Origin: Hondaea fermentalgiana
Taxonomy: Eukaryota; Sar; Bigyra; Thraustochytrida; Thraustochytriidae
Direction: 5' to 3'
NCBI GenBank assembly: GCA_014084085.1
Contig: NPFB01000053.1
Span: 12,281 to 76,280 of the forward strand
Length of the DNA: 64,000 bases
Positions 54-28,677 of this stretch are shown here, piece after piece (position 1 is the stretch's first letter; each line of letters begins with the position of its first letter). A program made the translations under genes and the position numbers. Below the pieces are notes generated by a model, which searched no databases, had not been told where the DNA came from, and saw only the letters and a list, made by a program, of their open reading frames with translations.

Positions 54-1962
54 GAAGGGGCTTGCTTACCCTGGCGCAGTGCTCGAATGTATGCAAAACG
101 AAATGTACGTAGAGCGAGCTCTCTGATGGGGGTTCCGAGTTAGACCCTTTTGCTGATCAAAGCTCGGATCGAAGCAAATATACTGATTGCCGAGACTTTT
201 GACTTGTGTCACCGAGAGCGACTCTTGTCTAGATTAGCAAGAAAGCATTCCAAATCGGTGAGGTCGAGCGCATACACTTTAGAAAGCTGCAGAGCGATCG
301 AAATTCTACAAAAACGTAAAAGTAGTTCGAAAGGCAGCGAGCCACCCTTGAACTGATTGATGATGCAATTTCGATAAAAGACATTGTCTTGCCCGCGCCT
401 AAAGTCCGAGATTACAGCTGGCAGGCAAGCGAGTCGTTGGTGCATTTTCAAGCTTAGAAAGATGCTCGAGCACCTCGATTGCAAAAGTGCAAGCAAAAAT
501 TCTCGCCAAGTCGTGATCAAAAGGTGAATGCTCGAGTTCGTTGTCGGCGTGCGTGTGAGCTGTAAGCGCGTTGTGGAGTAACGCTGCTGTCAAACTGGAT
601 TGAAGGGCGAATGTTCAAGCCCGTTGGTTTGTGCGCGAACAAGTGAGCGTGTCCGCCAAGTCTGCATGAAAAGGGAAGGCTGGAGTTCTCTGGTTGCAAG
701 CAAGCGTTATGTGAAAGCACCTGTCGTGTCAGATCTCAGCTCAAGAGGCCACAATCACCAATCAAAGCGGTTGCGATGGGGAGAAAGTGATGCTGTCAGT
801 TGGATAGTAAGCCTATGGAACAAGCACGCATCGATTTGCTGATCCCGTTTTCCAAGACCATATCAATTTTAAAATGGTGAGGCGGGATCGGTATCGTCTC
901 CCCATCAGTGCAAGACGTATGCAAGTGCGTTCGTTTCCCTTTCCATCTCGGACGCGCGCGCATCTCGAGCTGGGTAAAGAGCGAGCAAGTGAAAGATCCA
1001 TCGGCAGGCGGACGCGAAAGTTCTAGCCAACGGCAGAAACGTTACTTTTTGTGTTCCGCGACGGGACTTACAGTCAAGGCGAGCTGTCGCAGGCGCTTCT
1101 TGGCTGTCGCCATCGCCTCCCGCAGGGTCCAAGGACCTGTTGCCGGCTGCGGCGGTTTGGCATCTAGATGAGCGAGGTGGGGCGGCCGGACGCAAAGCGA
1201 GGCCGAGATCGAGGCCTTTCGCGTCCGCCTGTCGCCTGTTCCGGCTCCGTCGCCAGGGGTCTGAAACCGCAGAAAGATCCGCCCACCCTTGCGTCCGTCC
1301 ATCGCGTTCACACATCGCATCTTTTGTTGCATGCACCATCAGCAGCAGCAGCAGCAGCCTGCCATTTATGTTGGCCGCAAGAATCTTCTTGTCCGCGGCC
1401 GGTGCAACCAACGCCCGTCGCAGCGGCGGCGGTTGGAAGGGGCCAGTGCAGGCAGGGGGGCGATTGCGCCACTGGCGGGGCGGCCCGAATCGTCTCGATC
1501 GGTTAGCAGCGCAATTCGGTCCGCTCGATCATTCCGGACCGGCAGGCTGTTGCGTTTTGCTCCGTCCGGGCTGAGTGGCCTCGGCCGGCCAGGGAGTGAG
1601 GGGCCACTGCACCTCACCTCAACATGGCGGGGTCGGCTTGGCGGGGCCGCGTTTCGACGTTTCTCAAGTCGCGTCGCGTTCTGACATCGTCGGCCTCGCG
1701 TGCGCTGTCGGTTGGCTGGTTGGTTCCCCGCGAGTTGCGCTGCGCTGGCCGCGATGCGAAGAGCGCCGGTTTTTGTGCGCGGCGAGTCTTGATTCTCGGC
1801 GCGGTCGCAGCTCGGCCAGCCAACAACCAACCATTCGCGGACAGCCGGGATGGAGCGGGCGTACCTCGAACGAAGGAGATCCAGAGGGAGGGAGGGAGGG
1901 AGGGAGGGAGGGAAGAAACGGCCGGAGAAGCCGGCTGCGGCAGGCCGAGAGCGACTCGAGCG

Positions 1963-2013
1963 TCGCGGCTCGAGCATGCATCGCGGCTCGAGCATGCATC
2001 GCGGCTCGAGCAT
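1963..2013. repeat. 18-bp tandem repeat, 2.8 copies
   Basis: The unit TCGCGGCTCGAGCATGCA occurs at 1963-1980 and 1981-1998, followed by a partial copy at 1999-2013. Each unit carries CTCGAG and GCATGC palindromes. No gene is attached to it. Confidence 0.9.
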
Positions 2014-3360
2014 CGCGGGAAGCCAGCCAGTGAGCCAGCCGCCAGTGAGCACCCTCCCTCCCTATCTACGCCTGCCGCGCGTCGCATCGTATCTTCGAGT
2101 TGTGATGGAGGATCGGTGCGGGCAGTAAGTAGGGCGCCTGGCGTGCCGCATCTTTCCTGTCCCACTCGCTCTTTCTTTTTTTCTTTTTTCCTTAGCGAGC
2201 GAGTAGTAGGCCTACTAAGGTGGGTGTGCGCTGTGTTTTCCTCCCAACATCCGAGTCCCAAGAACAAGCTGCCTGCACCGCTCCCAACTTGAACTGGTTG
2301 AAGACGCGCATGTCGTCATCATTAGCAGCAGCAGCAGCAGCGAGCGTGATGGTATGCCATGATACTATACTCTCTCTACAGGACCTTCATGATGGCGGCA
2401 AGAGCCGAAGGAGGCCGAAGCACGGACGTCGCCTCGGATGGATGATTGATTGATAACATGCCTGCCTGGCTCCGGCAGCCACTATGGCCACCGCCAGCTG
2501 CCACTGCCACTGCAGCGACGGCGCGGCTGCGGCTGGCCATCATGACGGTGGCGTACGTATGCGAGGACAGCACAGGCTCTCATGGCCGGGTCCGGCTGGC
2601 TCAGGGCGACGGAGGAGAGGAGAGGAGACAAGCGCGGCGGCTCGGCGCGGCTCGGCCGGCAGGAGGCTCCGCTGGTGCCGGCGGTGATGCAGGGCTTGGC
2701 CGTGTCGTGTCGCGTCGCGTCGCGTCGCGGCCAGCTCTCGGGGAGCTCAGGCCCAACGCCGCCCAGCTCTTCGGCACTTAGCTGGCCACGCACGCACGCT
2801 GGCGGTCGCTGGCGGTCGCTGGCGGTCACGCTGCTCAGGCACGCTCGCTCTCTCGCCGGGTCTGGCAAGCCAGGTAAGGAAGGCGCGAGGCTGCGTGCGG
2901 TGCGAGGTTAGTGATGGAGGCGTGCGGGCTGGGCCTCGTCTCGAGGCTGGCGCTCCCATCTTCTCCACCGCGCGCACCGCAAGCACGCTGAGCCGCTGCC
3001 GCTGCTGGTGCCGGCGCCTGCCGCCAGCCCCTGCCGCCGGCCGGCCAGCTGTGCTGCAAGCAACAACGACGGCAGCTGCAAGCAAGCAAGCGAGCAAGCG
3101 AGGCGCGGCGCGTGGCCGGCAGGAGCTCACAGCGCCCAGGCGGACCTCTCTCTCTCCGGCTAGGTTCGTCGATCTCTCGCTGCTGCTGCTGCTGCTGCTG
3201 CTGCGCCTGCAAGCGACAAGCTGGAGTGGCTGCTGCTGCAGCAAACGCAGCAGCTGCCACGAGTGCTGCGCTGCGTGGTGCCGATGCGCATGACGCGCGC
3301 GAGGGCTTCGATTCGTGACGCGTGCGGGGCTGAACTGCCTCCGAGTCGCCTGGCCGCCCG

Positions 3361-3398
3361 CCTTCTTTCTTTCTTTTCTTCATTTCTTTTCTTCATTT

Positions 3399-3434
<36 letters not shown>

Positions 3435-3455
3435 TTCTTCATTTCTTTCTTTCTC
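3361..3455. repeat. TTTC/TTTTC polypyrimidine array
   Basis: This strand-asymmetric CT-rich tract has a core of about nine consecutive TTTC units near 3397-3433 and TTCAT interruptions. It lies in the spacer upstream of arginase. Confidence 0.9.
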
Positions 3456-4581
3456 TGGCCGAGCTCGGCTCGTCGGCGGCCGCCCTAAAGAACCCAGCAA
3501 GCAAGCAAGCAAGCAAGCACGCAGGAGGGAAGGAAGAAGTCGGGGGCGGTAATCTCGCGGCGCCTCGCTTGATTCGAGCCGCCTGTGGCTGATCGATGCG
3601 CCCGCCAGCCGGGGCTCCTCCCCTTGGCCCTTCCCTTCCCTTCTGCTCTCGGCTTCTTTCTAGCTGGCACTGGCCGCCGTGACCGACCTTCCTCCTTCCT
3701 CTCAACGGGCAAGAAAGAAAGAGCTCCCGAGCAGAGCAACCCAGGCAAGCAACCATGGCAACTCAACTTGACTGAAGCGAGAGCGGCCGCCGAACCTGCG
3801 CGTGCGCGGCCGCCAGCACGAAGCGCGCAGGGAGGGAGCCGGGAACGCCTCCGCCGCGAGGGAGAGAGAGCAGGGCTCGGCGCGGCGACTGCGATGCGCT
3901 GGCGACTGCCTGCGACACGACCGCTCGCATCTGCATGCGCCCTAGAGACAGAGAGGGGAAGTCGCGGAGGCGGCGCAGGAAGCCCCGCGGCAGTGGTCTG
4001 GAGCACGGAGGGGAGCTGTGCTTGCTGCCTGCCTCGGTGCCCTGCGCGCGGTGGACGCGATGCGTGCCCGTGCACCTGGCCTGGCTGGCCGGGCGGCGAG
4101 GGCCTGCGCGGTGTACCTCCGCTCGCGTCGCCGCGCGCCTGGCCAGGCCAGCCAGGACAGACAGATAGACGGACGGACGCCGCGAGAGGGCGACGGGCAG
4201 GCGGCTGCTGGACCGGCAAGGCGCGCGAGGGCAGGACGGGCGGGCGCAGACGGTTAGTTAGGTAGACCAGCCACAGCCAGCCACCGGCCTGCCAGCCAGC
4301 CAGCCAGAGAGGCAGGCAGGCAGAGAGAGAGTTACGGTTAGTCATAGGCGGACGGCGCAGAAGAAGAAAAGAAAAGAAAAGAAAAGAAAAGAAAGAAGAG
4401 GCTAGCTAACCTGGGAGAAATAAAGGAATGACGGCGGACCTCTCCTTGCCTCCCTTGCCTCCTGGATCCGGGCGAGCTCAGGAGCTGCACCGATCGCGGC
4501 GATCGGAGCACGCTTGCAGGCGTACGTCATGCGTCGACGAGTCCGCAAAAGGCAAGCTTTGACCTGACCACGCACGCCTCG

Positions 4582-4612
<31 letters not shown>
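4582..4612. repeat. (CAGA)n tetranucleotide array
   Basis: About seven consecutive CAGA units. The same motif recurs in short arrays at about 15713-15732 and 47068-47090. Confidence 0.9.
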
Positions 4613-5430
4613 CGCCGTGTCCATGGCGCGCCCAACCGTGGCCTTCTCTCTCCTGCTGCTTCCCTGCTTCCTGCCTCGCCTCGAACCTCCAACTCCGCTG
4701 CTGCTGCGTCTCTCTCTCAGCCCAGGCAGAAAGAAGCGGCAGCGGCGGCAGCCGAGTGCAGAGCCAGCCGCGTGAGCCAGCCAGGCCCCGCGTCTCAGCG
4801 ATGCGAGGAAGGCGCCGGAGGCAGGCAGGCAGGAGCGAGGGAGGCTGGCGGAAGCGCGGCGGAAGGCGGGAAGCGGAGCGGGACGAGTCGGAGGCGCGAG
4901 GCGCGAGGGGCGCAGGAGCAGAGCAGAGTCAGGGCTCGCGCCGCCGTTCGTTCGACCGCGTTTCGAGCGCCGGTCGCGCCGCGGCCCTGCCTGCGTGCTT
5001 GGCGGGCGAGAGGCGGAGAGCCGGGAGCGAAGGGAGGGAGGGAGGGGGAGAGGAGCTGAAGCGGGGAAGGCGGGAAAAAAGCGGGTCAAACAGGCAGACA
5101 GACAGAAAGGAGAGGGGCAGGTGTTTGTTTTTTGTTGCTACCACCCCGGCATCAGCATCACAGAGCAACGACTATAGGCGGCCAGAACAGACAGACATAC
5201 AGACTAGACAAGCAAGCAAGCAAGCAAACAACCAACAGAGGTAGACGCGGAGGGCGAGGAGAGCAAACCCGAAACAGTCAGGCCGCCGGTGGCGTACTAG
5301 GCAGACAGGCAGAAGCAGAAAGCAGGAAGAAAGGCGGGAAGAGAGAGCGAGAGAACCCGGCGGCGCAGCAGCGCAGACCCCCGACAGACAAACAGACCAA
5401 AGCACAAGCGCGCGCGAGCGAGCGAGGAGG

Positions 5431-10363: not shown

Positions 10364-11128
10364 TGTGCCAGAGTGTCAATCTCTTGCTCTGCCTGTCTGA
10401 CGTCGCGAGCTGGCTTGTCTTGCGTTGCGTTGCGTTGCTTTGCCTTGCCTTGCCAAGCCCGCGCTACGCGCACGAGAACGAGCCTTCGTTCCCCCTGGCA
10501 AGCGAGTCTCAACTCTCGATCGCCGTTGGCCCCACCTCTCGACGACCGTGCAGCGCAACCTTGTCTGCGCCGCGACGCGTGAGAGCTACGAACGTACGGG
10601 ACCTGCAGACGGGCTACGCCGCCGCCGCCGCCGCCGCCACTGACGCCGCCCTCGTCGTCGCTACTGCCGCTGCGGCCGCGTCGAGATCTAGCTGAGCGAG
10701 AGTTCGATTTCTGCTTTGCAGGATACCATAGTGAGCGTAGAGAGCGAGTAGAGAGCGAGCATGTTTTTGTTCTTCCCTCTCAACCTGGCCTAGCTTCTCA
10801 AATGTTGACAGAGAGCGAGCGAAACGCCTCAAGACTCAGAAGAGTGTTGCGTGAAACCCAGCGAAGGACGACTCGACTGCCGACGAGAAAAAAGTGGTCA
10901 AGGCGTAGGAGTAATTGAGTTCTGCAAACGAAGCAAGCGAGTAAGCAAATGAGATTCAAGGCGGGCTCAACTCAATTGACTTGACTCAATGATGAGGATG
11001 AGGATGAGGATGGTGATGATGGAAACGGTGGCCGCCATTGCACCTGATGAATTCATGGCAATCACCACGTCCACCTCGACAGGATAAACTCGTTTGTAAA
11101 GATGATGTGAAAACTTAGCTGATTGCAG
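10364..11128. other. Tandem spacer between aldolase/SDR and PLAA
   Basis: This 765-bp spacer is presumed to hold the 3' UTR of the aldolase gene and the promoter of PLAA. It contains GCC-type triplet repeats near 10618-10640 and a GATGAG repeat near 10991-11015. No gene or structured RNA was recognised. Confidence 0.6.
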
Positions 11129-13348
11129 CTATCGAGGAGCAGCGGCAATGTTGCCACCGTCGACAGTGTAAATGGATCCAGTGGTGCTACGCGCGGTCGC
11201 GAGCGAAAGAAAGGCCTGGGCAACATCGTCGGCGGAAACCTCAACACTGAGCAGGTTAGACTTGAAGTACTGCTCGGCGGTAAGACCGCGAGCCTGTGCC
11301 CGCTTCTCGACAAGGGCAATATCAAAGAGGTTGGTGCGCACGCGATCGGCATTGACAGCGTTGCTGCGAATACCACGGTCGCCGTACTCGACGCAGTACT
11401 GGCGCATGAGGCCAAGAGCCGCAGCCTTGGCCACGCAGTACGGCCCAAGCTTGGGACCAGGGTTGAGCGGGGCCTTGGAAATGTTGTAGAGAAGCGCGCC
11501 ACCCGTGCCCTGAGCGACCATGCGGCGCACACCGGCACTCGACACCCAGTGATGACCGTAAAAGTTAATGTCCATCGACTTCTTCAGCGCCGCAGGATCA
11601 ACGCTGGCCAGGCCCGGCGCAGCCTGCACGACAATGCCAGCGTTCGAGACGACAATGTCGACACCGCCAAAGGCCACGCAAAGCTTGTGAAAGGCCTCCT
11701 CGACCTGCGCCGGATCGCTCACGTCAGCAATCGCGCCGGCCACAGCAAATTTGTTCTTGGTCGCCTGCGCGACAGCAGCCACGCCCTCGCTGACGCGCTC
11801 CGGAAGCAGGTCCACGATAAAGACGCTGGCGCCAGCCTTGGCAAAATGCACCGCGGTCTGGAGACCGATGCCCGAGCCGCCGCCCGTAATGAGTGCAACC
11901 TTGCCGTGGAGAGCTCCCGCAGCCTTGGCGCCGAGCTTGAGCTTGGCCTGCTCCAACGACCAGTACTCGACGTCAAAAATCTCTTCCGTGTTCACCGGCT
12001 CAAAGGTACCCGAGGATTCGAGACTCGAGACCAGGGTCGGCACAGTGTGCTCGTAAATGTCAGCCGCGATCGAGCACGACTTGGCATCGCGCGCAACCGT
12101 AAAGAGACCAAAGTGCTCCACCAGCAAAACGCGCGGAAGCGGGTCAAGCTCCTGCTTCGTGCCGCCCACGCGCTCATTGTTGCTGCGAAAGTACTCGTGG
12201 TAGCGGTCCACGTACGCTTGCATCTGCTCGCGCAGGTACGTGCGGAGGGCCTTGTCACCCTCGGGGGTCTCGGCCACGCCCGCCGGGTCCTCGCCCTCGC
12301 CGTAAAAGCGGCCCTGTTCCAAGCCACGGATCACGAGCGGGACCTGCTTGGTGCGGATCACGTGGTCCGGGGTGATGCAACCAATCTGCGAGAGCTTGTC
12401 GCACTCCTCGGACTGGGCAAAGGCCGCCACCTCAGGAGAGTCGCGGTACGCCAGGATCCAACCTGCTCCGCCGTCGACATCGCCCGAGAATTCGGCAAAG
12501 ACGCCGCGCAAGACGCTGGTGGCGCGATCGAAAAAGGCGGCCGATGGCTCCTTACGCGGGCGCAGCGTCAGAGCGTTGTGCTCGCGCGAGGCCAGGTAGC
12601 GCTCGGCAAGGTTTACAGCCTTGATGTGCTTCTCATACGAGTCGCGCGCCTCCTCGCCCCAGGTAAAGAGACCGTGCTTGAGCAGAATGAGGCAGTCCAG
12701 GTCGTCGCCAGCCTCGGCCAGGACCTTGCGCGCCGCACCAGCAAGAGGGAAGCCCGGAATGTGGTAGGGCACCACGGCGAACTTGAGCTCGCCGCCAAAG
12801 GCCTCGGTAAAGAGCCGGGTGGCCTCTTCCACCGAGTGGTCCGCCAGCGCCACAATGGCGTCGGCATGGCTGTGGTCCACAAAACGCGCAGGCAGCAGAG
12901 CATGCAAAAGGGTCTCCACGGACGGGTTCGGCGACGAAGCGTCGAGCATGTGGGTGCGGAACTCGTTGACCATTTCCGGGTCCGTCATCGAGTCGAGCTC
13001 GAGCAGCCTGCGCAAATGCACGAGGTCGACCTGGGGAAAACCCTTGGGGATGATGCTGTCCAGGTTGTATCCGCTTCCCTTGACGCAGAGCACGTCCACT
13101 TCGTCGCCTACGCGCGTCTTGCTCTTCAGCTTGACGCTTGTGTTGCCGCCGCCATGGAGCACGAGCGAGGCCTCGCGACCAATCAGGTTGCTCGTGTAGC
13201 ACCGAATGGCCAGCTCCGCGGGGGCTTCAGGAAACCGCTCGCAGTACGCCTTGGCTTCGGCTTCATCGTACACTGGATACGCGACCTCCTTTACGTGCAC
13301 GGGGCCCTGGCTTACCTGGGCAAGCCCGCTGCAGCCGCACGAAGTCAT
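11129..13348 (-). CDS. Bifunctional class II aldolase / short-chain dehydrogenase (RhaD-ADH type)
   Basis: This 739-aa protein has two enzyme modules. The N-terminal part is a class II (zinc) aldolase with the GGGNTS motif, an HSH zinc-binding motif (H159, H161) and a distal KHGLFTWG histidine motif. The C-terminal part, from about residue 480, is a classical SDR with TGGGSGIG (T488-G495), SNAG, a serine 13 residues before the catalytic tyrosine, and YCVAK (Y637, K641). This architecture is that of the bacterial bifunctional rhamnulose-1-phosphate aldolase/lactaldehyde dehydrogenase (COG3347). It would cleave a ketose-1-phosphate and oxidise or reduce the released aldehyde. The eukaryotic substrate is unknown; no other rhamnose-pathway gene is in the window. 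Single exon. Bacterial ancestry by lateral transfer is a reasonable inference but unproven. Confidence 0.9.
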   Translation of the reverse strand: MTSCGCSGLAQVSQGPVHVKEVAYPVYDEAEAKAYCERFPEAPAELAIRCYTSNLIGREASLVLHGGGNTSVKLKSKTRVGDEVDVLCVKGSGYNLDSIIPKGFPQVDLVHLRRLLELDSMTDPEMVNEFRTHMLDASSPNPSVETLLHALLPARFVDHSHADAIVALADHSVEEATRLFTEAFGGELKFAVVPYHIPGFPLAGAARKVLAEAGDDLDCLILLKHGLFTWGEEARDSYEKHIKAVNLAERYLASREHNALTLRPRKEPSAAFFDRATSVLRGVFAEFSGDVDGGAGWILAYRDSPEVAAFAQSEECDKLSQIGCITPDHVIRTKQVPLVIRGLEQGRFYGEGEDPAGVAETPEGDKALRTYLREQMQAYVDRYHEYFRSNNERVGGTKQELDPLPRVLLVEHFGLFTVARDAKSCSIAADIYEHTVPTLVSSLESSGTFEPVNTEEIFDVEYWSLEQAKLKLGAKAAGALHGKVALITGGGSGIGLQTAVHFAKAGASVFIVDLLPERVSEGVAAVAQATKNKFAVAGAIADVSDPAQVEEAFHKLCVAFGGVDIVVSNAGIVVQAAPGLASVDPAALKKSMDINFYGHHWVSSAGVRRMVAQGTGGALLYNISKAPLNPGPKLGPYCVAKAAALGLMRQYCVEYGDRGIRSNAVNADRVRTNLFDIALVEKRAQARGLTAEQYFKSNLLSVEVSADDVAQAFLSLATARSTTGSIYTVDGGNIAAAPR

Positions 13349-13928
13349 CTTTCTCGTATCTCACGCTAATGCACGTGCGCTTGCTCCACCTTGGAGCTAG
13401 CTCGTCGACGAGGTTCGCGAGGAAACCTCTGCCTCCGTCGCCTCTCCGTCTGTCTCGGCTTGTCTCGGGCGCTGCTGCTTCGCGTCGCAGGCGCGCGCGC
13501 GATCTCCTCAAGGCCTTTTGGATCGCGTTTGCTTTGATTTGATGGGTGGTGGCGAAGTGGTCTCATCTCCTCACAATGACCGCAAGTTCAACTTCAAGCC
13601 CAAGTTGTACTTCTAGGCTACCGTGTATGTAATAAGGGAGAAACAAGGCAGCCGAGGTGAGGTATTGATTGTCCTGGCAGCAGCAAGGGCGGTGAGAAAT
13701 GCAATAATGAAACCTACGCTCTCATTTGTCGTTTTCCCCGCAAACGTCAACGTTGGAGCAAGCAAGACCAGCTGCTGCTGCTGCTGCTGCTCAAGACTTT
13801 GGAAATGTAAGTGCCTCGAAAGAGAGAGCTACAATCGTCTGTCAATCGCTTCAATGAGAAGTAACAAAGAAACAAACTCCGCCCAAAGTTATGATACACT
13901 TTTATTCTTATTGAGACGGTCAACAAGT
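13349..13928. other. Tandem spacer between KIN17 and aldolase/SDR
   Basis: This 580-bp region is presumed to contain the promoter of the aldolase/SDR gene and the KIN17 3' UTR. It has a short GCT run near 13771-13791. No gene was recognised. Confidence 0.55.
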
Positions 13929-15278
13929 TTAGACGCCAGAGCCAAGGTCAAAATACCGACACACGTTTTCATAGTCGAGCGCAACGTCGGTAGAAGACCC
14001 CTGAACGCATACTCTGGCCTTGAATTGGTCTTCAAGCAAACCCTTCATGATCCCGCGTTGGCCTCGTAGCGCCATATCCGATTTTTTTGATACAATGAGC
14101 ACAGGTCCCCCGACGTCCGGAAGGACCGTTTCAAGGTGACTTTCTTTGGCCCAGACAACTTCGTCCGGATCATCCATGAGCTGCAGCTCGGCCTTCACCT
14201 TTCCAGAAGATTCCGATCGGGTTGCCCTCACTACGATGGCCTTGCATTTCTTGAGATTGCCATTGCCCACCTTGCTCGAAATAATCTTTACAACCAGGCC
14301 AGGGACGAGCCATGAGCCATCAATCAAGCCATCTACAAGGCTTGCAGTGTTCGAGTTGCGCGTATCTGCTTCTTGGCTTTGACGCTGATCTTGGCCAGGT
14401 CTTGTTTCCTTTTCAGCCGCCTTATTGACATCGCGGGCCAATGCGTGCTGTCTAAATTCATCATGGTTATCTTCGTATCCTTCTCCTCGGTCTCGATCTT
14501 CATTTTGATCTTGATCTTGGTCCAAATCTTCTTCTTCTTCTTCTTCTTCTTCTTCTTCTTCTTCTAAATCACTGGCTTCGCCCTGGGGAAGTCGTCGGCG
14601 ACGCTTGCGCAAGGCAGAAGCATCCTGCAGCGAGACGCGAACCTTGCCAAGCTGCGCGCGACTCGACTCGTCGAGTTGCGAAGGGGCTACGACGGGAACT
14701 TGGTCCGTGGAAGCAAGAGCCTTTTGTTGCATCTCGAGAAGTTTGCGCCTGCGATCCTCGTCGTCGAGGTCGAACTTGCGCTTTTTGACCTTTTCAAGGT
14801 CGAGCTGGCGCTGCACATGCGTGGGGTCGCGATTAATCCATTGGATGCGGAAGCCACGCTCCGTCTCCTCTGCGCGCACAATGGACTCCTCGACAAGATA
14901 TTTCACAAATTGCGTAAGAGTGGCCCAACGCGTAGCGTTCATGTGCACGTGCTCGCGCTCCTGGATGTACTCGTTGTAGACGGCGTTGGCGTCGACAAAC
15001 TTGCTCTGGTGTCTGCGCGAGAGCAAATCGACGTAGCCTTTTTCAAATCTGCTCGAGAACTCGTCAAGGAACTTATTCTGGTTGCTTGCGAAGAGCTGCA
15101 TTTTGCGAATGTGCGCCTCCGACATGCAGTGGCACTTGAAGCCATTTTCGTCGCGGCACTGTTTCTCGCACATTTGGCAGTAGAAGCGCAGTTTCCCGAG
15201 CCCTCGCGCCTTCATCTTGTTGGCCACCGCCTTGGCCGACCCGGGCAGCGCCTTGCCCTGCTTGCTCTTGCCCCCCAT
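13929..15278 (-). CDS. KIN: KIN17 nuclear zinc-finger protein
   Basis: The 449-aa protein matches KIN17 closely at its N-terminus (ANKMKARGLGKLRFYCQMCE, RDENGFKCHCMSEAH). The zinc-finger ligands are C34, C37, H50 and H56. A KIN17 winged-helix region follows (VYNEYIQEREHVHMNATRW, then GFRIQWINRDP). The C-terminal third has two small SH3/KOW-like segments (SWLVPGLVVKIIS and LRGQRGIMKGL). KIN17 is a conserved nuclear protein of pre-mRNA splicing and DNA-damage response. A run of about 13 glutamates is encoded by a CTT array at 14527-14566. I chose the ATG at 15276-15278 because it gives the family N-terminus; the open frame continues upstream only as Arg-rich non-conserved sequence. The gene is divergent from the DHHC gene. 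Confidence 0.95.
   Translation of the reverse strand: MGGKSKQGKALPGSAKAVANKMKARGLGKLRFYCQMCEKQCRDENGFKCHCMSEAHIRKMQLFASNQNKFLDEFSSRFEKGYVDLLSRRHQSKFVDANAVYNEYIQEREHVHMNATRWATLTQFVKYLVEESIVRAEETERGFRIQWINRDPTHVQRQLDLEKVKKRKFDLDDEDRRRKLLEMQQKALASTDQVPVVAPSQLDESSRAQLGKVRVSLQDASALRKRRRRLPQGEASDLEEEEEEEEEEEEDLDQDQDQNEDRDRGEGYEDNHDEFRQHALARDVNKAAEKETRPGQDQRQSQEADTRNSNTASLVDGLIDGSWLVPGLVVKIISSKVGNGNLKKCKAIVVRATRSESSGKVKAELQLMDDPDEVVWAKESHLETVLPDVGGPVLIVSKKSDMALRGQRGIMKGLLEDQFKARVCVQGSSTDVALDYENVCRYFDLGSGV
14527..14566 (-). repeat. Triplet array encoding a Glu run in KIN17
   Basis: Consecutive TTC triplets on the plus strand are read as GAA on the minus strand and produce a polyglutamate linker between conserved KIN17 domains. 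Length variation between strains is likely. Confidence 0.9.
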
Positions 15279-15635
15279 CGCGCCTCCTGCCCGCTCGCGC
15301 GCCCGCCTGCTCCCGGTCGCCCTGCGTGCGTTTCCAGCGCGGGGTCCCCGGCTCCCGCTCTGTTCTCTGTTGGCTTCCCTTCGCTTGCAACACCGATTTG
15401 CGTTCCCCAGGCGACCGACCAAGCCAGAGCCTGCTTCGGCGGCGCTCGTCGCGAGGCTCGCCGCCGCGCTCTGCCGCGCTTGCCGCGCTCTGCCGCGCTT
15501 GCCGCGCTACGGGTCTGCTCGAGCCGGCGAGTGGCCCTGCTTTCCGCCGCCTTCTTACTACTACGGGAATAGTACAGCGTACCTGCCCTGGCTGATTGAT
15601 GCTCCTGCTGTCACAGCAAGAAGGCCGTCGGGCGA

Positions 15636-15678
<43 letters not shown>

Positions 15679-16014
15679 GATGAAGGAGCTTCGCATGCCG
15701 CATACACACAATACAGACAGACAGACAGACAGTCTCGGCGCGAGCCCGCGCAGCGCAGCGCCGACGCAGGCAGCGCGAGGCAGGAGGAGGACGGCGACCA
15801 CTCGAGCCCGCGCGGAAGACGCCGAGCACGGCGGGTCGCTGGCCGGGGCTGGCCGGGCTGAGCTGGACGAGGTTGAGTCGGTCCGCTCGCGCTTGGAAAG
15901 AAGGCGAGCGAGTGAGCAACGACGACGAGGAGGAGGAGAAGCGCGCGCACCCCCCCCCCAAAAAAACTCCCTCTCGCCCCCTTTCGCTCGCGGTGCCGCT
16001 GACGAGAGGAGACG
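15279..16014. other. Divergent spacer between KIN17 and DHHC
   Basis: This 736-bp head-to-head spacer should hold two promoters. It contains an AAAG array (15635-15678), a CAGA run (about 15713-15732) and a C-run followed by an A-run (about 15951-15967) just upstream of the DHHC start. No gene was recognised. Confidence 0.6.
15635..15678. repeat. (AAAG)n array
   Basis: About eleven AAAG units lie between the divergent KIN17 and DHHC genes. Confidence 0.93.
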
Positions 16015-17133
16015 ATGGACGAATCCTTGTGCGCATGCTGGCGCGAGTGCGGGACAGATGATGACCATCCGTCGTGGTTCGTCAAAGACTGCTGCGGCAT
16101 GATCTGCGCAACCATCACCCAAGGCCTCCTCATCTTCGCAGAGTACGTCGTCGTGGTGGACGTGATCATGCCCTGGATGGGAGATAGCTTTTGGGGCCAA
16201 TTCCATGTTGTCGCCTTCTCCACCATTGTTGCTCTGGCCATGATCTCTCATGTGCGCGCTATGACCACGGACCCCGGAGCCGTCCCAAAAAATGCGGTCC
16301 CCGCGGATTTTGAGCCCGGCGACACGGGCAAATCCTTTCGCGTCTGCCTCAAGTGCGACGCATACAAGCCCCCGCGCACGCACCATTGCTCCATTTGCCA
16401 GCGGTGCATCGTCAAGCTCGACCACCACTGCCCCTGGGTCAACAACTGCGTCGCGCTGGGCAATCACAAGTTCTTTTTGCTTTTTCTTCTCTATGTGTTC
16501 TCCGCCAGCGTCTACGCGCTGACTCTGCTCATGGCCCGCTTCGCACACTGCTCGGGCAAGTCTGTATCCCCGCGGCGTAAGCGTCTTCGTGCAGAACGTC
16601 TTCGCAAGCAGGACGTACAAAGCGAGATGCTCGACACCGCCGTTGAGGCCGCCATTGACGTAGCGGTGCAGACCATGACAGGGAACAAGGACGAACCTGT
16701 CTTCTACCCCGAGTGCAACATGTCTGTCCTCGCCAACATCCTCATGTTCTTTGTAATTGTCGAGGGCGTCCTCTTTGGTCTCTTTACCATGTGCATGCTC
16801 TGCGACCAGACCAACATGGTACTTACGGCTAACTCCAAGATTGATCGCCTCCAGGGCGCGCGGTCGTCGAAGCGCCCGATCTGCGACAACCTCACGGAAG
16901 TCTTTGGCGGCGAGCCTCGCTTCTCCATCTTTTGGCTTCTCCCCACCAAGATCTCTCACACCCGCCCAGAAGAGGTATACGGCTACCGTGTTCATGATCC
17001 CTCTGAGCTGGCGGCCATGACCAGTGTTACCATTCCAGACGGCGCAGAGATGCCGGAGGACCTGACACACGCTGTGTCATCCACAAGCACGATGAATTCG
17101 GACGGCCTCCAGCGCAAGGTCGAGTTTGTTTAA
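16015..17133 (+). CDS. DHHC-type palmitoyltransferase
   Basis: This 372-aa integral membrane protein transfers palmitate to cysteines of substrate proteins on endomembranes. The cysteine-rich domain reads [20 protein letters not shown] and leads into [19 protein letters not shown]; the catalytic tetrad is D136-H137-H138-C139. Two hydrophobic segments precede it (near residues 31-50 and 62-80). Two follow it: [20 protein letters not shown], and [20 protein letters not shown] after a cytosolic-type insertion of about 55 residues. This gives the usual four-pass topology with the active site in the cytosol. It resembles the GODZ/ZDHHC3-7 group. Single exon; the TAA stop lies about 30 bp before an assembly gap, so the 3' UTR is missing. 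Confidence 0.95.
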
Positions 17134-21011: not shown

Positions 21012-24000
21012 ATGACATCGTGGCGAGAGGAGCTCGCAGGGCTAGGCGAGGAGCTGCTAGGCCGACTGGATAGCGCCTCGAGCACGCAGGCTATTCGCTG
21101 CCTGAGCGGGCCCGAGAGTGATGATGCTGAGATTGATCTTGGCTCCTCAAGTCCCGAGTCGAAGCGCACCGCGGTCGTGCTCGTTGCAGAGCTTGCGCGC
21201 GAAGTTAACGACGCGGAGAGGAACACACAGCTCGTGCTGTGTCTGAGGACACGGCAGCGAGGGATCGCCGTCGAAAATGAGCTCGAACTTCCCTGCAACG
21301 TGAGCGCAAGTCGCCTCGACCGCGTCTTGCGCGGCTTCGTGCTTTCGATCCATCAAAGCCCGCGGAGCACAATGGCCTCGCGCAGTGCACAACGGCCCAA
21401 GACAGTTCACGCTTTTCGCGTCGACGATGTAAGCTTTCGGCAGCCCGAAACACTTCGGCAATGGCACCCAAACGCGTGTGGATACCATGCTCTGTTCAAC
21501 GCGATTCGACTCTTGGATGCAGAACCCGCAACCAAGGTTCGCGAAGAAGAATTCTGGCGTGAAGCGCTCACGTGGCTTCGCACGCTGCATGCTTACAACC
21601 ATGTATCGAAGCGCTGGTCGTCGAGCGGATTGCGCTCCGTGACGCTTGATCAGATGCAGATCGCATATCTGATTGATCACGACGTACGCCTGCGCGGCAG
21701 AGTCGGAGTCTTTGGTAGCCTGGAAGAGGTGATGGCGCTGGGCGATGCAATGCCTCGAGCCATCGTGTTTGGATGTGTCACGCACTGGGCAGCCGCAGCC
21801 GTTCACCACGAGTCAACGACTGTATTTTTTGCCGAGTCCTTTGACAAGACATGCATGCAATTCGCGACCGCTTACGAGTCTCGAGATCAGGAAGATGTTT
21901 CGCTCGAAAAGACACTCGAATTCCGAGAGCCTCGCAACTTGGCTGACGCGATCATGGAGGACTATCATCCCAAATTCATTGCCAAGTTGCGTGCTTCGCA
22001 TGTCTCGTACGCGCACATGCCAGCAGAAGCCCTTGAAGACTTTTACGAGAACGGCGTGCCCGAATATTGGAAAGGCAAGGAGAAAAACTCCCTGTATTGG
22101 ACGCATCGTCCTCGGGAGCTTCGCGTCTTTTTGCTCGTGCAAGAAATCGAGGCTGTGGCAGCGCTCGTGGACCATCTCTTCGAGTACCTTTCGGCAGGCA
22201 AGCGCGCTGCTGAGCCGGATCACCTTCTATGCGGATCCCCGCACGTGGTTGAGACCGATCTTCGAGCATGGTGTGCAGACCAGCCCACGCCGACGTATGC
22301 ATCTGCAGGCCTTGCGCCTGGCTTCGTGCGCCGTGACGAAGATTGGGATCCCGAAAGTGAAGAGTACAAGAGCGGACGCACAGTCGAGCACCGCAAAAAG
22401 CCACCCCCACCAGAAGCAGAGGGCGACATATTCGATCGCCAGCGCGTCATGGTGGATTTTGATCAGGGTCTGGTGGAGCGCCAGGTTTGTCTCGTGGTGG
22501 GAACAGGAGGCGTGGGACAAAACACAGCTCTCACGTTGGCGCGCCTCGGTGTCGAGTGCATCATTCTGCTCGACTATGACACTGTCGACGCTTCGAATCT
22601 GACGCGCCAATGCCTGTCGAGTCGTGCAGACGTGGGTATGCTCAAGGTGGATGCAGCGCGGGCTAATTTGCTCGCGCAACACAACTTGCGCAGCACGGTG
22701 CTGACCATGAACGGCGACGTTCTCGAAATGTGGCCAATGGTCGTCGAGCTTGCCCGAATGTCAACGGCGATTTTCAATTGTGCAGATGTGGGCGTTATGT
22801 TTGACTATTGCATGGCCTCGCTGGCCAAAGAGCTCGGACTTCCCATTGCCACGGGGCAATCCTTTGCGTGGAAGTTCATGACAGAGGTGTACTCTGGCGC
22901 GCCTCACGAGTCGTGTGCCTTTTGCCAGGAGACGACGCGGAGCTCGTTCGGCTTGCAGAACCTCTCAACAGTCGTTGCTCGCTGGCAAGATTTCGTCACT
23001 GACTTGTCTGAAAAGGACGCCAATGATGATCTGACGGCAATACTGTGCGACTTTATGGCCCAAGACCCGCAGTACCGCATGCGTGGGCCAAGCACGCAGC
23101 GGGCTGTGGCGGCCGCCTTGGCAGATGTTGGCGCACAGACGGTCAATGATGTGGACACCGAAGAGACTTTCTCATCGTTTCTCGAACGATTGCACGTGCG
23201 CGTGATGGAATGTTTGGAGCCTGGTCGAATCAGCAACGCTCCGGATGTCATGCTCGTTCCAAGACCCAAGCTGCCGGAAACGCGGTTCTTCGGGTCCTGG
23301 GTCTGTCCGTGCCTGTCGAGCGGAACCATGATGGTCTCGAACTGGCTCAATATGCTGACAGGCCCAACAGGGAAGAATCCACCTACGAATCTTGTGTTCA
23401 ACCTCGACGAGGGCATGACCTCTGAGGAGCAAATGAGTTACGAGATTGGATTCGGCCTCAGCAAGGAAGATCGCAATTTTGCGCGGTCTCCTTCGAATCC
23501 CAAATGTTCCCTGTGCAAGTCTGCCGTCTCCATTTCGGCTCGTAGAGACCTTTTTCTCGGAACATCGCCAACGTGGCTGCGTCCCACCGACGGTCGCGTT
23601 TTTCCTGTTCCCCAATTTATGGACATCAGCGCAAGCGAGTGCAAGCCTAGTGTAAATGAGGCATCGAATGGAGCAAACCTCGGCCTTGTCGAGCCTCGAT
23701 TGCCTGCGCGCCCGGCTGCAATGCTTGCGACCAGTGCTCTCGGGACAGCGATACCTGCGCCTGGAGAGCTGACAACGCGAGCTTTGATCAAGTGCACCGA
23801 GCAAGAAGCGGCCACTGAGCCAAGTTCGCTTCGCTGCAGCGCGTCTGGCGTACGTTCTGCTGTGGTGTACCTCAATGGCCGTGCATATCGACTCAAGGGT
23901 TGCGGAAACAACGAAGAGGGTTTTGTCGTTGAGGCACGCGGCGACAATGGCGAAGAGATGGTGCGCGGCTGCCTCTTCTCGCGGACCTCGAGTACTGAGA

Positions 24001-25193
24001 TGCACATGAGCGAGCGTGTTCGGGAGGTTCTGGCGCCTGTTGGTTTGCGCGCCGGCAATACCCCCGTATGCTTTTATCAGTATGAGACACCGCATCTCCC
24101 GGCCGAGGCAACATGCTTTTGCAATGTTTACGAGACCTTGGGTGATCGGCGACTTGGCGATCACTTGCTCGCGGGATTGGAGCTTCTCATGCCTTCCATC
24201 TGTGTCGTGGACACTGACAAGAGCAAGAGCTCGAGCAAGAGCAAGAACAAGAACAAGAGCGCGGATACCGCGCGTGCAGTGTTGCAGGAGGCGCGAGGCA
24301 TGGAGGGTGACGAGGTTTGGGACACTGCGACAATGGCCGAGTGCGGAATGCCGGTGCACGACATGCGCGATCTCTTTGCCATTGATCTAGTGGCGCCGGC
24401 GCCGGACGCCTTGGATCATGTTCTTTGGGCGCCGACAGTCGACGCGCTTGAGGAGGCTCTGAGCAAAGCCTCTGGTCCTAGCGTGCTGTTGCAGCTGGCC
24501 TACGTGCTCGGCTGGCAATGTGGAGTCACCTGCTCGGCTCTGCAGGCTGCAGAAATTTCCTGGGGCACGTATCCGGATGAGACTGGGGTGCATTGCAATG
24601 CTCACGCAAACAACATGGTTGTCTTGGATGCCTTCGTTGAACAGGATGAGATACTCGCGCCGGTAGACTTTGACATGGCTTTTATGCGCGACGCCTTTGA
24701 TCCGGAGATTCTAGACCAGGCGCACCAGACTATTTTCCCGCGCGAGTGGGATGACCTCGTCGCCATGGAGCAACGTAAGTATGACGTGATGCAATGGTCC
24801 CTTCTCACGAGATTGGATGAGAGGAAGAGGTTCTCGTGGACCAAAATTGATTGACTGACTGACTGACTGACTGAATGCTGCCTGACTTTTACTGAACTGA
24901 CTGGCTGAATGGCGATGACTTTAGAAATGGGAATGCGAACTTCCCTTGCTGGATCAGATTTTACGTCGACGGGAGTGAGCAATACTGCGGCGCAGGCGTT
25001 CGCGGACTCGCCTCTACTAGCGCTCATCCGTGCTGCTTTCCGTGACACGATTGTGAGCGGCTTCGACGCCGCACTTGCAAGCGATCAACCCGCCCACGCG
25101 GCTGAATGTGGTTTTGCGGATACGCCAAGCGCTGAGGCTGCGCGGGCGCTAATTGTCCTGAGCTTGCTTCTCACCAAGGACGTGAACGCTTAG
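21012..25193 (+). CDS. Multidomain protein: peptidase-like + E1-like adenylation + kinase-like fold
   Basis: Two exons, 21012-24774 and 24925-25193, encode 1343 aa. The intron starts GTAAGT, ends TTTAG and restores the frame. Without splicing the frame ends at 24854 (1280 aa). Residues 71-115 resemble a beta-grasp beginning (LVLCLRTRQ then ELELPCNVSASRL). Residues 150-278 look like a papain-order cysteine peptidase: Q150, C156 in NACGYHALFN, H258 in THW, D278. Residues 494-640 form an E1-like ThiF/MoeB/UBA adenylation domain with GTGGVG (497-502), D521, D523, N529, R532, K545 and D592. C635/C638 and C832/C835 form a CxxC pair typical of zinc-binding E1-like proteins. Residues 950-1225 resemble a kinase-like fold (SelO/APH-like): K962, E996 or E1001, HCNAHANN (1194-1201) and D1219-F-D1221. 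The usual catalytic Asp position is Asn1196. A ubiquitin-like modifier or small-molecule adenylation pathway is inferred; the substrate is unknown. The ATG at 21012 is the first in frame; M121 is an alternative start. Confidence 0.88.
24775..24924 (+). other. 150-bp intron of the E1-like fusion gene
   Basis: The donor is GTAAGT at 24775 and the acceptor TTTAG ends at 24924. TACTGAAC-like branch sequence lies upstream of the acceptor. The intron includes five GACT units and in-frame stops. Splicing joins phase-1 exons in frame and adds 89 residues to the protein; retention gives an earlier stop at 24852-24854. Confidence 0.8.
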
Positions 25194-25566: not shown

Positions 25567-28500
25567 TTACTCGGCAAAAGCGCGCTCAATGATATCCTGC
25601 TGCTCAAGGGCATGGACACCACCGTATCCGACAGCGGGACTTGCCATGGTGGAGCGGCCAATGTACTCGGCACGGAGCTCTGGCTCGTTATCGACAGGGT
25701 CACCGCGCTCCATGCGGACCTTGCGAATGGCCGTGTAGATGCGGTCATCGCAAAAGTACCAGGTTCCCATGTTCTTGGGCTCCTCCTGGGCAAAGACGAG
25801 CTTGGCGTTGGAGTACTTTTGGTAGGTCTCTGCGATGCGATCAAAGGGAAAGGGCGTGATCTGCTCAATGCGAATAATGGCCACGTCCTTGATGTCGTTC
25901 TTCTTGCGGTAGTTGGCGAGCTCGTAGTAGAGCTTGCCAACACAGAAGATAACCTTGCGGATATCCTCATCAGGCGTGGCGTTGACCTCGGGGTCAACCT
26001 CAAGCAGGACGCGGTGAAAGTAGGCGTCCGGGCCGGAGAATTCCTCAATATCAGAGCGGACAAGGTCATCCTTGAGCATACTCTTGGGGGTAGCAATGAC
26101 GAGGGGCTTGCGGAAGCCACGGTGGACCTGGCGACGGAGAAGATGGAAGATCTGGGCCGGGGTGGTGACGTTGCAGACCTGCCAGTTGTTGTTTTGGATC
26201 GCCATACTCTGCTCGCGGCCCGAGTGCTCGGGGATCTGATCGGGATCCTCGTCGGAGAGCTGGAGGAAGCGCTCAATGCGGCAAGAACTGTGCTCGGGTC
26301 CCTGGCCATCGTATCCGTGGGGCAAAAAGAGGGTCAGGCCGCACTGACGGTTCCACTTGGTCTCTCCGCAGCTGATGAACTGATCGACGATGATCTGAGC
26401 ACCGTTCGAGAAGTCACCGAACTGGGCCTCCCAAATGACGAGGGCGTTGGGGTCCTCAAGGGCATAGCCGAGCTCAAAGCCCATGATGCCGTACTCGCTA
26501 AGAGAGGAGTTGCATACGGTAATGTTTGCGATCTTGTCGTTGCCCTCACCAATGGCGCGGACAGCTTCGATGTCAGTGTTGGCGAGCTCGTTGAGGCCAA
26601 CCCAAGTTCCGTAGGGCTCGTTCTGGTCGTGGAGGACAGCGTGGCGGTGAGAGAAGGTACCGCGCTGGGAGTCCTGGCCAGAGACACGGACGTGCTTGCC
26701 CTCGAGGAGGAGGGAGCCGTAGGCAAGGAGTTCGGCGCAGCCCCAGTCAATGCCCTCACCCTTGCGAGTCATGTTGAGCTTTTCGTTGAGGAGCTTCTTG
26801 ATGGTGCGGTGGGGCTGAAATCCCTCAGGGGGCTGGAAGATGATCTCGCCAATGCCGCGCAGAACGTCCTCGTCGACGCGGGTGGGCTGGCGCTTGGAGA
26901 ACTTGCCAATGGCGGTCTGGCCCTCCCACTTGGAGTCGATCCACTCGTTGTCGTCAATGAACTGGTTGGGCTCGGTCGACTTGCGGAACTCGTCCTCGTA
27001 GATCTCCATGACCATGTTCTTGACGGTGGCGACGTGGGCCTGGTCGCAGAGGCCGGTCTCGATGGCCTTGGCGGTGTACTTGTCGAGGACGTTGGGCGTC
27101 TTCTTGATGATCTGGTACATTTTGGGCTGGGTAAAGAGAGGCTGGTCCATCTCGTTGTGGCCGTTGCGGCGGTAGCCGACGACGTCGATGATGACATCAC
27201 TCTTGTACTTTTGGCGGTAGTCCGCGGCGACCTTGAAGATGTAGGCGACGGCCTCGGGATCGTCGGCGTTGACGTGGAAGATGGGGCAGTCGAAGGCGCG
27301 GCCGAGATCAGTGCAGTAGCGCGTGGAGCGGCTCTGGTACGGGTCAGTGGTGAATCCGATCTGGTTGTTGACGACAATGTGGATGGCACCGCCGGTCTTG
27401 TAGTCCGGAAGAGCGCTCATGTGCATGGTCTCGTAGACGACACCCTGGCCACAAAAGGCGGCATCACCATGGATGAGGACAGGCATGGTGCGGTCACCGT
27501 CGACATCGTCATCGTAGTACTGCTTGGCGCGGGCCTTGCCGACGACGACGGGGTCGACGGCTTCGAGATGCGACGGGTTAGCGGCGAGCGAGAGCTCGAC
27601 CTTGCGGCCGTCCGGGTACTCGCGCTGGTAGGTCATGCCCAAATGGTATTTGACATCACCACTGATGGCATAGTCGTCGCGAAGGCTCTTGAAGAGCTGC
27701 TCGTTCTGGACGCTGAGGCCCTTGAACTGAAGAAAGATCTTGTAGAGATCCTTGCGCACGACGTTGGCAATAACGTTGAGACGGCCGCGATGGGGCATGC
27801 CAATGACGACGTTCTCGACACCGTTGAGGGTGGCCTGATCGATGAGGCTCTTGAAGCCTGGGATGAAGGACTCGGCACCCTCGAGACCGAAACGCTTGGC
27901 CGTGTTCCACTTTGTGGAGAGGAAGAACTCCCACATGACGGCAAAGGTGAGGCGCTCGAGGATCTGGAGGCGCTCCTCCTTGGAGAGGCCCTCGGCCACG
28001 GCATTGGGCTTTTCGAAGCGCTCGCGGATAAAGTTGCACTTCTCCCGGTCGGTGATGTGCATGTATTCGAGGCCAATGTTGCTGCAGTAGGCCTGCTTGA
28101 GCGTGTCGAGAATGTCGCGGAGCTTGATGGGGCCGCCAGTGTCGAGAATACCCTTGATCTCCTTTTCGACGCCGCTGAGGTTGAACTCGCGGTCGAGGTC
28201 GGCCTCGGTGAAGCCGTAGGTGGTGTAGTCGAGATCGGCAAGCTCCTGGGGCTTGAGGATGCCGAGGGGGTCAAGGTTTGCGTGCTCGTGGCCGCGGGTC
28301 TGGAAGGCGCGGATGAGCTGCATCACGTTGATGGTGTCCGAGGTGGCCCGGCCGACGCCGATGTTTTGGCCGGCCTCGACGGAAGAGGCGGCAGCCGAGA
28401 GCTGGGTGGTGAGACCAGGGAAGGGCTGGAAGGCCATGCCGGGGTCCATGCCGCTATCTACGTTGCGAAAGTAGGTCGCGAGGGAGGAGTCAACCTTGGA

Positions 28501-28677
28501 GGGGTCCTGCTTGTACAGGTCGTACATTTGCTCCAGATACACGGCGCTGGTGCCCTGGAGAAAGGACTCATTCGGGTGGGGCGCCTTCTTGGGCACGCTC
28601 GCGAGCGTCCTGGCGCCGGCGAGCCGCCGTGCGGCCTGCGCCACGGCGCGCGCCGTCGCCGACTGGGTGCTCCACAT
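25567..28677 (-). CDS. OGDH: 2-oxoglutarate dehydrogenase E1 component, mitochondrial
   Basis: This 1036-aa protein is the thiamine-diphosphate-dependent E1 subunit of the 2-oxoglutarate dehydrogenase complex of the TCA cycle; it decarboxylates 2-oxoglutarate and passes succinyl to E2. The first 30 residues are a classical mitochondrial presequence (Arg, Ala, Ser, no acidic residues). The conserved FLQGTSAVYLEQMYDLYKQD segment follows at about residue 39. Family motifs include GMPHRGRLNV, the TPP/Mg motif HGDAAFCGQG...NNQIGFTTDP (about 400-440), YRRNGHNEMDQP, and SLSEYGIMGFELGY in the pyrimidine-binding domain. Length matches the mitochondrial enzyme (about 1000 aa). Single exon; the start ATG is at 28675-28677. 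Confidence 0.98.
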   Translation of the reverse strand: MWSTQSATARAVAQAARRLAGARTLASVPKKAPHPNESFLQGTSAVYLEQMYDLYKQDPSKVDSSLATYFRNVDSGMDPGMAFQPFPGLTTQLSAAASSVEAGQNIGVGRATSDTINVMQLIRAFQTRGHEHANLDPLGILKPQELADLDYTTYGFTEADLDREFNLSGVEKEIKGILDTGGPIKLRDILDTLKQAYCSNIGLEYMHITDREKCNFIRERFEKPNAVAEGLSKEERLQILERLTFAVMWEFFLSTKWNTAKRFGLEGAESFIPGFKSLIDQATLNGVENVVIGMPHRGRLNVIANVVRKDLYKIFLQFKGLSVQNEQLFKSLRDDYAISGDVKYHLGMTYQREYPDGRKVELSLAANPSHLEAVDPVVVGKARAKQYYDDDVDGDRTMPVLIHGDAAFCGQGVVYETMHMSALPDYKTGGAIHIVVNNQIGFTTDPYQSRSTRYCTDLGRAFDCPIFHVNADDPEAVAYIFKVAADYRQKYKSDVIIDVVGYRRNGHNEMDQPLFTQPKMYQIIKKTPNVLDKYTAKAIETGLCDQAHVATVKNMVMEIYEDEFRKSTEPNQFIDDNEWIDSKWEGQTAIGKFSKRQPTRVDEDVLRGIGEIIFQPPEGFQPHRTIKKLLNEKLNMTRKGEGIDWGCAELLAYGSLLLEGKHVRVSGQDSQRGTFSHRHAVLHDQNEPYGTWVGLNELANTDIEAVRAIGEGNDKIANITVCNSSLSEYGIMGFELGYALEDPNALVIWEAQFGDFSNGAQIIVDQFISCGETKWNRQCGLTLFLPHGYDGQGPEHSSCRIERFLQLSDEDPDQIPEHSGREQSMAIQNNNWQVCNVTTPAQIFHLLRRQVHRGFRKPLVIATPKSMLKDDLVRSDIEEFSGPDAYFHRVLLEVDPEVNATPDEDIRKVIFCVGKLYYELANYRKKNDIKDVAIIRIEQITPFPFDRIAETYQKYSNAKLVFAQEEPKNMGTWYFCDDRIYTAIRKVRMERGDPVDNEPELRAEYIGRSTMASPAVGYGGVHALEQQDIIERAFAE

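Follow-up and report, generated by a model that had tools for sequence, protein, structure and literature searches.

A fused peptidase-like, E1-like and kinase-like protein of Hondaea fermentalgiana, possibly an enzyme of an undescribed ubiquitin-like pathway

Ubiquitin E1 enzymes of the UBA1 type carry two ThiF repeats per chain, and enzymes of the MOCS3/Uba4 type have a rhodanese domain at the C-terminus, peptidase-like and kinase-like modules being foreign to that family. We describe here a forward-strand gene (positions 21012 to 25193) in a 64,000-nucleotide stretch of the genome of the labyrinthulomycete Hondaea fermentalgiana; the whole stretch is called the window below. The product, of 1343 amino acids (aa) in our model, combines in one chain a region resembling cysteine peptidases, an E1-like (ThiF) module and a C-terminal kinase-like module, and we consider the chances evenly divided that it is a fusion enzyme belonging to an undescribed ubiquitin-like (Ubl) pathway. 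Bacterial operons that combine E1, E2, JAB and Ubl genes have been classified as types 6a to 6e (Iyer et al., 2006; PMC1779556, available part). Two features recall these operons: the C-terminal module has a bacterial homologue on a JAMM/JAB protein, beside an E1 gene and a Ubl-like open reading frame (ORF), and the ThiF module of the window matches PADLOC E1-E2 models (best 2.3e-13). However, the available part of that paper mentions no kinase-like module attached to the JAB protein, and in eukaryotes the module sits on the E1, in a chain without JAB. A literature search lying largely outside the subscription journals found no paper on this peptidase-E1-kinase-like architecture in the text available.

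The features of the C-terminal module are as follows (window coordinates; counts are of sequences).

23754..25190, + strand: kinase-like module at the C-terminus, residues about 915-1343, split by the intron; E 2.1e-44 with bacterial JAMM-fused proteins (hhalign), no Pfam family
23895..23903, + strand: K962-G963-C964 of the invariant KGCG motif; K962 and C964 in 23/23
23997..23999, + strand: E996, in a helix at the kinase alpha-C place (helix 573-592 of the P0010 model); 23/23
24591..24614, + strand: HCNAHANN, residues 1194-1201, N1196 filling the catalytic-Asp slot; H1194, N1196, H1198 and N1201 in 23/23
24666..24674, + strand: DFD, residues 1219-1221, metal-binding-type motif; 23/23

The 23 sequences comprise 19 of eukaryotic type and four of bacterial type; left out were the deposited Hondaea protein (P0001, spliced otherwise and replaced by the 1343-aa model), P0011, whose C-terminus falls short of the catalytic loop, and P0013, a fragment. 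Over this set 32 positions are invariant, including K962, C964, E996, R1047, W1184, H1194, N1196, H1198, N1201, D1219 and D1221. A preliminary description of the locus, made from its letters, had singled out K962, HCNAHANN and DFD, and K962, H1194, N1201, D1219 and D1221 are indeed kept in every row. The catalytic loop of a protein kinase reads HxDxxxxN; here the Asp of an active kinase is missing, with Asn at 1196 in 23/23. No family was found for the module in Pfam scans, including two C-terminal pieces scanned separately, and a comparison with the PDB sequences gave a single row (E 1.3). As a separate observation, C964 (window 23901-23903) in KGCG is invariant in 21/21 alignment rows and in the four bacterial-type proteins, and could be a nucleophile of this module.

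The link to bacteria came from two peptide patterns run against 84,980 species genomes, which gave 129 relatives. Of these 129, 80 were retained, and a single one of the 80, L008, a 7551-bp contig of a Candidatus Aminicenantes metagenome-assembled genome (MAG), matched past the E1 region (query 52-880). Its ORFs are, in contig coordinates:

470..697: 75 aa, ubiquitin-like by eye, ending Ala-Lys, not Gly-Gly
736..2574: E1-like (ThiF 1.1e-29)
2587..3015: 142 aa, possibly E2-like, no profile support
2996..5005: 669 aa, JAMM domain plus C-terminal module

Three more proteins with JAMM and the C-terminal module were found (P0023-P0025). When the eukaryote-type family was compared with the four bacterial-type proteins (hhalign), the match extended over 404 columns (Prob 100, E 2.1e-44). 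The first part of the bacterial-type proteins (P0022-P0025) matches RPN11, CSN5, AMSH and BRCC36 (best 3.1e-8, RPN11-like), and the JAMM motif HxHx7SxxD is complete in 4/4, as in MPN+ proteins, the Pfam JAB models matching only below cut-off. E1 and JAB genes stand together at L008, as in the type 6 operons. The module is attached to E1 in eukaryotes and, in a bacterium, to a JAMM domain with an E1 as neighbour, which speaks for a single pathway that activates and removes a small modifier. A search (A3) of 40 further genomes matched two, both Helarchaeota, over only the first 209 of 652 positions.

The central module has these features (counts are of alignment rows).

22410..23546, + strand: E1-like (ThiF) module, residues about 467-845
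22914..22925, + strand: first CxxC, residues 635-638; 17/21
23310..23312, + strand: C767, invariant Cys in a PC motif, candidate thioester Cys; 21/21
23505..23516, + strand: second CxxC, residues 832-835; 17/21

Both the complete E1-like ATP site and the separate ThiF/E1 match expected in the preliminary description were borne out. PF00899 matches with 88 bits against a curated cut-off of 28.1, which places the module in the ThiF/E1-like superfamily; its fold is MoeB-like, and GxGG and the adenylate-site residues D521, N529, R532 and K545 are kept in 20/20 covering rows (D592 in 21/21). The CxxC pairs reported at 635 and 832 are both present in the Hondaea protein and are lost jointly in the same 4/21 relatives. 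The invariant C767 may be the Cys that forms a thioester with a Ubl. Pfam finds one ThiF stretch in the chain, so that this is not a canonical ubiquitin E1 of the UBA1 type. It also differs from MoeB/ThiF/UBA5-type enzymes (PF00899) by a long insert between the CxxC pairs, by the invariant PC (C767) and by its fusion to two modules foreign to them, and the NCBIfam MoeB and ThiF models match far under their cut-offs. A search of the 36.0-Mb Hondaea assembly gave four other matches, in the E1 region only (query 461-642).

A protein search, with scoring of the 8000 candidates that had most words in common with the query, returned at least 21 proteins. Among these 21, five (Hondaea's included) consist of the peptidase-like region, E1 and the C-terminal module, so that the search for the same domain order suggested earlier yielded four further full-length proteins. 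The other 16 show no peptidase, and 14 of them have the complete order of E1 and C-terminal module; P0011 stops before the catalytic loop and P0013 begins inside the E1. As P0006, P0009, P0011 and P0012 come from contigs of ca. 3 kb and P0013 is partial, the missing peptidase in these five has to be taken as the sequence stands; in P0002 the final part of the C-terminal module is absent. The named relatives belong to the dinoflagellates Effrenium voratum and Durusdinium trenchii and to the glass sponge Oopsacas minuta. When the C-terminal module is placed in a midpoint-rooted tree, the five proteins with a peptidase group on a branch of their own (86/93), and so do the four of bacterial type (100/100). 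Viral contigs gave two loci with ThiF only and no JAMM fusion, and seven phage records matched, in the ThiF region only.

Regarding the fold of the C-terminal module, we placed the invariant residues by hand on the elements of the predicted structure of P0010. There, three strands lead up to the Lys and are followed in turn by two short strands, the helix with the Glu, two strands, a helical part, the HCNAHxNN loop and, ahead of DFD, a strand. A beta-3 Lys, alpha-C Glu, catalytic-loop Asn and DFG-type Asp thus fall in kinase order on matching secondary structure, and this predicted model is suggestive of a protein-kinase-like fold. The earlier kinase-like reading of residues 950-1343 stands for the motif order, no Pfam or PDB-sequence family being matched. 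The model of E1 plus C-terminal module searched against the PDB (VIA) returned E1s in all 50 matches listed, which filled the list and make the absence of kinases there uninformative. Against viral models, Foldseek placed E1s at the top; further down, seven of the 50 rows carry the name of a kinase (E from 2.6e-3 to 5.1e-2, TM-scores low), interspersed with methyltransferases and capping enzymes, in rows silent on which part aligned.

One comparison is with the AMPylase SelO (PF02696), a kinase fold in which this catalytic Asp is replaced and which transfers AMP (PMC8097203, available part). Both share the kinase-like motif order without the Asp and, by eye, LKGxG. Membership in SelO was rejected: an hhalign comparison of 26 SelO sequences with 23 members of the family yielded Prob 0.1 and E 0.4, and hmmsearch --max best E values of 1.9 and 1.3 (of 27 SelO loci, L118 was dropped for its stops and L104, just 45 aa, retained). 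Pfam scans of the protein gave no PF02696 rows, nor did a family search of the Hondaea genome. As profile comparison found no homology, SelO serves only as a works-like comparison.

The N-terminal region can be described as follows (counts are over Hondaea's protein and its four full-length relatives).

21393..22211, + strand: cysteine-peptidase-like region, residues about 128-400, from alignments; Q150, C156, H258 and W259 invariant
21459..21461, + strand: Q150, oxyanion-type Gln by position; 5/5
21477..21479, + strand: C156, candidate nucleophile, within predicted helix 153-168; 5/5
21783..21785, + strand: H258, candidate base, adjoining predicted strand 259-264; 5/5
21834..21836, + strand: E275, candidate third residue, better than D278; E/E/E/D/D

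Papain and Josephin are Clan CA cysteine peptidases, and a Gln-Cys-His-acid order like that of this clan is found here: Gln-x5-Cys-Gly, His-Trp and Glu/Asp follow one another, with the Cys near a helix start and the His beside a strand in the predicted model. The papain-like set Q150/C156/H258/D278 first proposed held for Q150, C156 and H258. D278 varies (D/D/R/N/N) and is not the likely third residue, position 275 being acidic throughout.

The gene itself begins with a 1280-codon open frame (ORF 21012..24854) and, if 24775..24924 is spliced out, runs to 25193.

21012..24774, + strand: exon 1, residues 1-1254 and the first base of codon 1255; open frame, computed splice model
24775..24924, + strand: GT..AG intron of 150 nt that holds an in-frame stop (24852-24854); splice model, exon 2 residues kept in relatives
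24925..25193, + strand: exon 2 including the stop codon, remainder of residue 1255 to 1343; MGMRTSLAGSDFTSTGVSN similar to P0003-P0005

This reproduces the single 1343-aa protein first reported, and all 20 residue positions that we looked up stand where claimed. The deposited protein P0001 (1332 aa; 100% identity at 98% query coverage), annotated as 'Adenylyltransferase and sulfurtransferase MOCS3', uses a different acceptor at the last intron (region 24775-24960), by which most of a stretch like MGMRxSLAGSxFxSTGV is gone. In the alignment such a stretch occurs in P0003, P0004 and most shorter relatives; because relatives share it the join 24774/24925 is supported, and the 1343-aa model agrees with them better than the deposited one.

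Pfam identifies the convergent neighbour (25570-28677, - strand) as an ordinary E1 component of 2-oxoglutarate dehydrogenase. About 11 kb away (7970-10375, - strand) there is a WD40-PFU-PUL protein with PLAA-type ubiquitin-binding domains (Pfam), a neighbourhood that is probably due to chance. Two long open frames (11123-13366, + strand; 15076-17076, - strand) had no Pfam match at 1e-5.

How might such a chain work? The MoeB-like E1 module would adenylate a small Ubl or carrier at its C-terminus, and the activated modifier may then sit as a thioester on C767. The C-terminal module would bind Mg-ATP through K962, E996, N1201 and D1219; since it has no catalytic Asp, its chemistry is probably nucleotide-dependent but not plain phosphorylation, perhaps a nucleotidyl transfer (AMP, as in SelO) or a ligase-type reaction on the activated modifier, the target or the E1. 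The cysteine-peptidase-like domain of Hondaea and the four full-length relatives could mature or remove the modifier, as the counterpart of the bacterial JAMM on the same C-terminal module. In a more specific form, which we offer tentatively and hold to be rather doubtful, the Ubl-type pathway would be self-contained and common to bacteria and several eukaryotic lineages, an Asp-less kinase-fold enzyme carrying out the transfer, by nucleotidylation or amide ligation, on the modifier that E1 has activated, replacing or beside E2/E3, and the Hondaea-type chain uniting processing, activation and transfer.

Several results weigh against a Ubl pathway. The 75-aa ORF of L008 matches single ubiquitins at E 1.1-1.3, the value of 3.8e-9 stemming from multi-copy ubiquitin constructs; Pfam gives it no ubiquitin family, only Tla3_N at 0.012, below cut-off, and it ends in AK instead of GG. 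An E2 identity of L008 2587-3015 found no support: with a Hondaea E2 profile (13 of 20 E2 loci), the eight best hmmsearch rows shown were all query shuffles, the ORF scoring -2.2 bits, hhalign gave a Prob of 0.8 (percent) and E 0.072, and Pfam, PADLOC and NCBIfam returned nothing. Within the phylum of the MAG, 7/199 genomes matched, six just in the JAMM part; with the fusion solely in the MAG itself, the operon rests on a single 7.5-kb contig. For the peptidase region no match to Clan CA enzymes was found by sequence or structure, so that the separate significant hit once expected for residues 130-300 did not materialize: Pfam gave just HypD at 0.14 in 1/5 sequences, the PDB sequences a single row at E 1.7, the structural search (VIA) of the predicted N-terminal model no recognisable peptidase among the 50 matches listed, and the 8000 candidates scored no stand-alone peptidase relative at E <= 0.001. 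Moreover, the structural searches of the kinase-like module rest on the joint model with E1, and no Ubl partner is known in Hondaea, where no search for one was made. Of the self-contained modifier-activating and processing machine first envisaged, the E1 module above the PF00899 cut-off and the kinase-type motifs in 23/23 remain, while the peptidase is left without a family match.

Two rival readings stand out, a peptide pathway and a C-terminal module without catalysis. MccB and PaaA adenylate the C-terminus of a peptide, and in a comparable biosynthesis of a peptide or small molecule the E1-like module would do the same, the peptidase would trim a leader and the kinase-like module would add a group, giving a modified peptide and no protein conjugate; we think this unlikely. 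We judge it similarly improbable that the C-terminal module is a pseudokinase scaffold or sensor regulating the E1 (the JAMM in bacteria), with chemistry limited to E1 and protease. The Asn in the catalytic-Asp slot in 23/23 would suit such a role; however, K962, E996, N1201, D1219, C964 and other polar residues are invariant from bacteria to eukaryotes, beyond the apparent needs of a scaffold, and SelO is an example of a kinase fold capable of catalysis although this Asp is replaced (PMC8097203, available part).

Two further explanations concern the name and the gene model. A sulfur-transfer enzyme of the MOCS3/Uba4 type, as the deposited name implies, finds an echo in the MoeB and Uba4 sequences among the matches of the E1 module, but this already disfavoured reading is very improbable given the low NCBIfam scores and the two alien modules, and Pfam scans that admitted E values up to 1 and up to 10 showed no rhodanese family. 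That two or three adjoining genes have been merged into one reading has next to nothing in its favour: the present and deposited models do disagree at the intron, but exon 1 alone is an uninterrupted frame through all three modules and the same order recurs in four other proteins (1257-1330 aa), two of them from transcript-derived sets, in agreement with the single gene first described.

Two distinct gene fusions tie the C-terminal module to E1, the activating side of ubiquitin-like modification, and to JAMM, the removing side. The module represents a conserved domain of ca. 400 residues absent from Pfam, with its 32 invariant positions common to eukaryotic and bacterial sequences, in an architecture that the deposited MOCS3 name obscures. 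The bacterial operon offers small, testable parts and, if the proposal is true, a kinase fold without its catalytic Asp inside a Ubl pathway would amount to a new type of step in Ubl chemistry.
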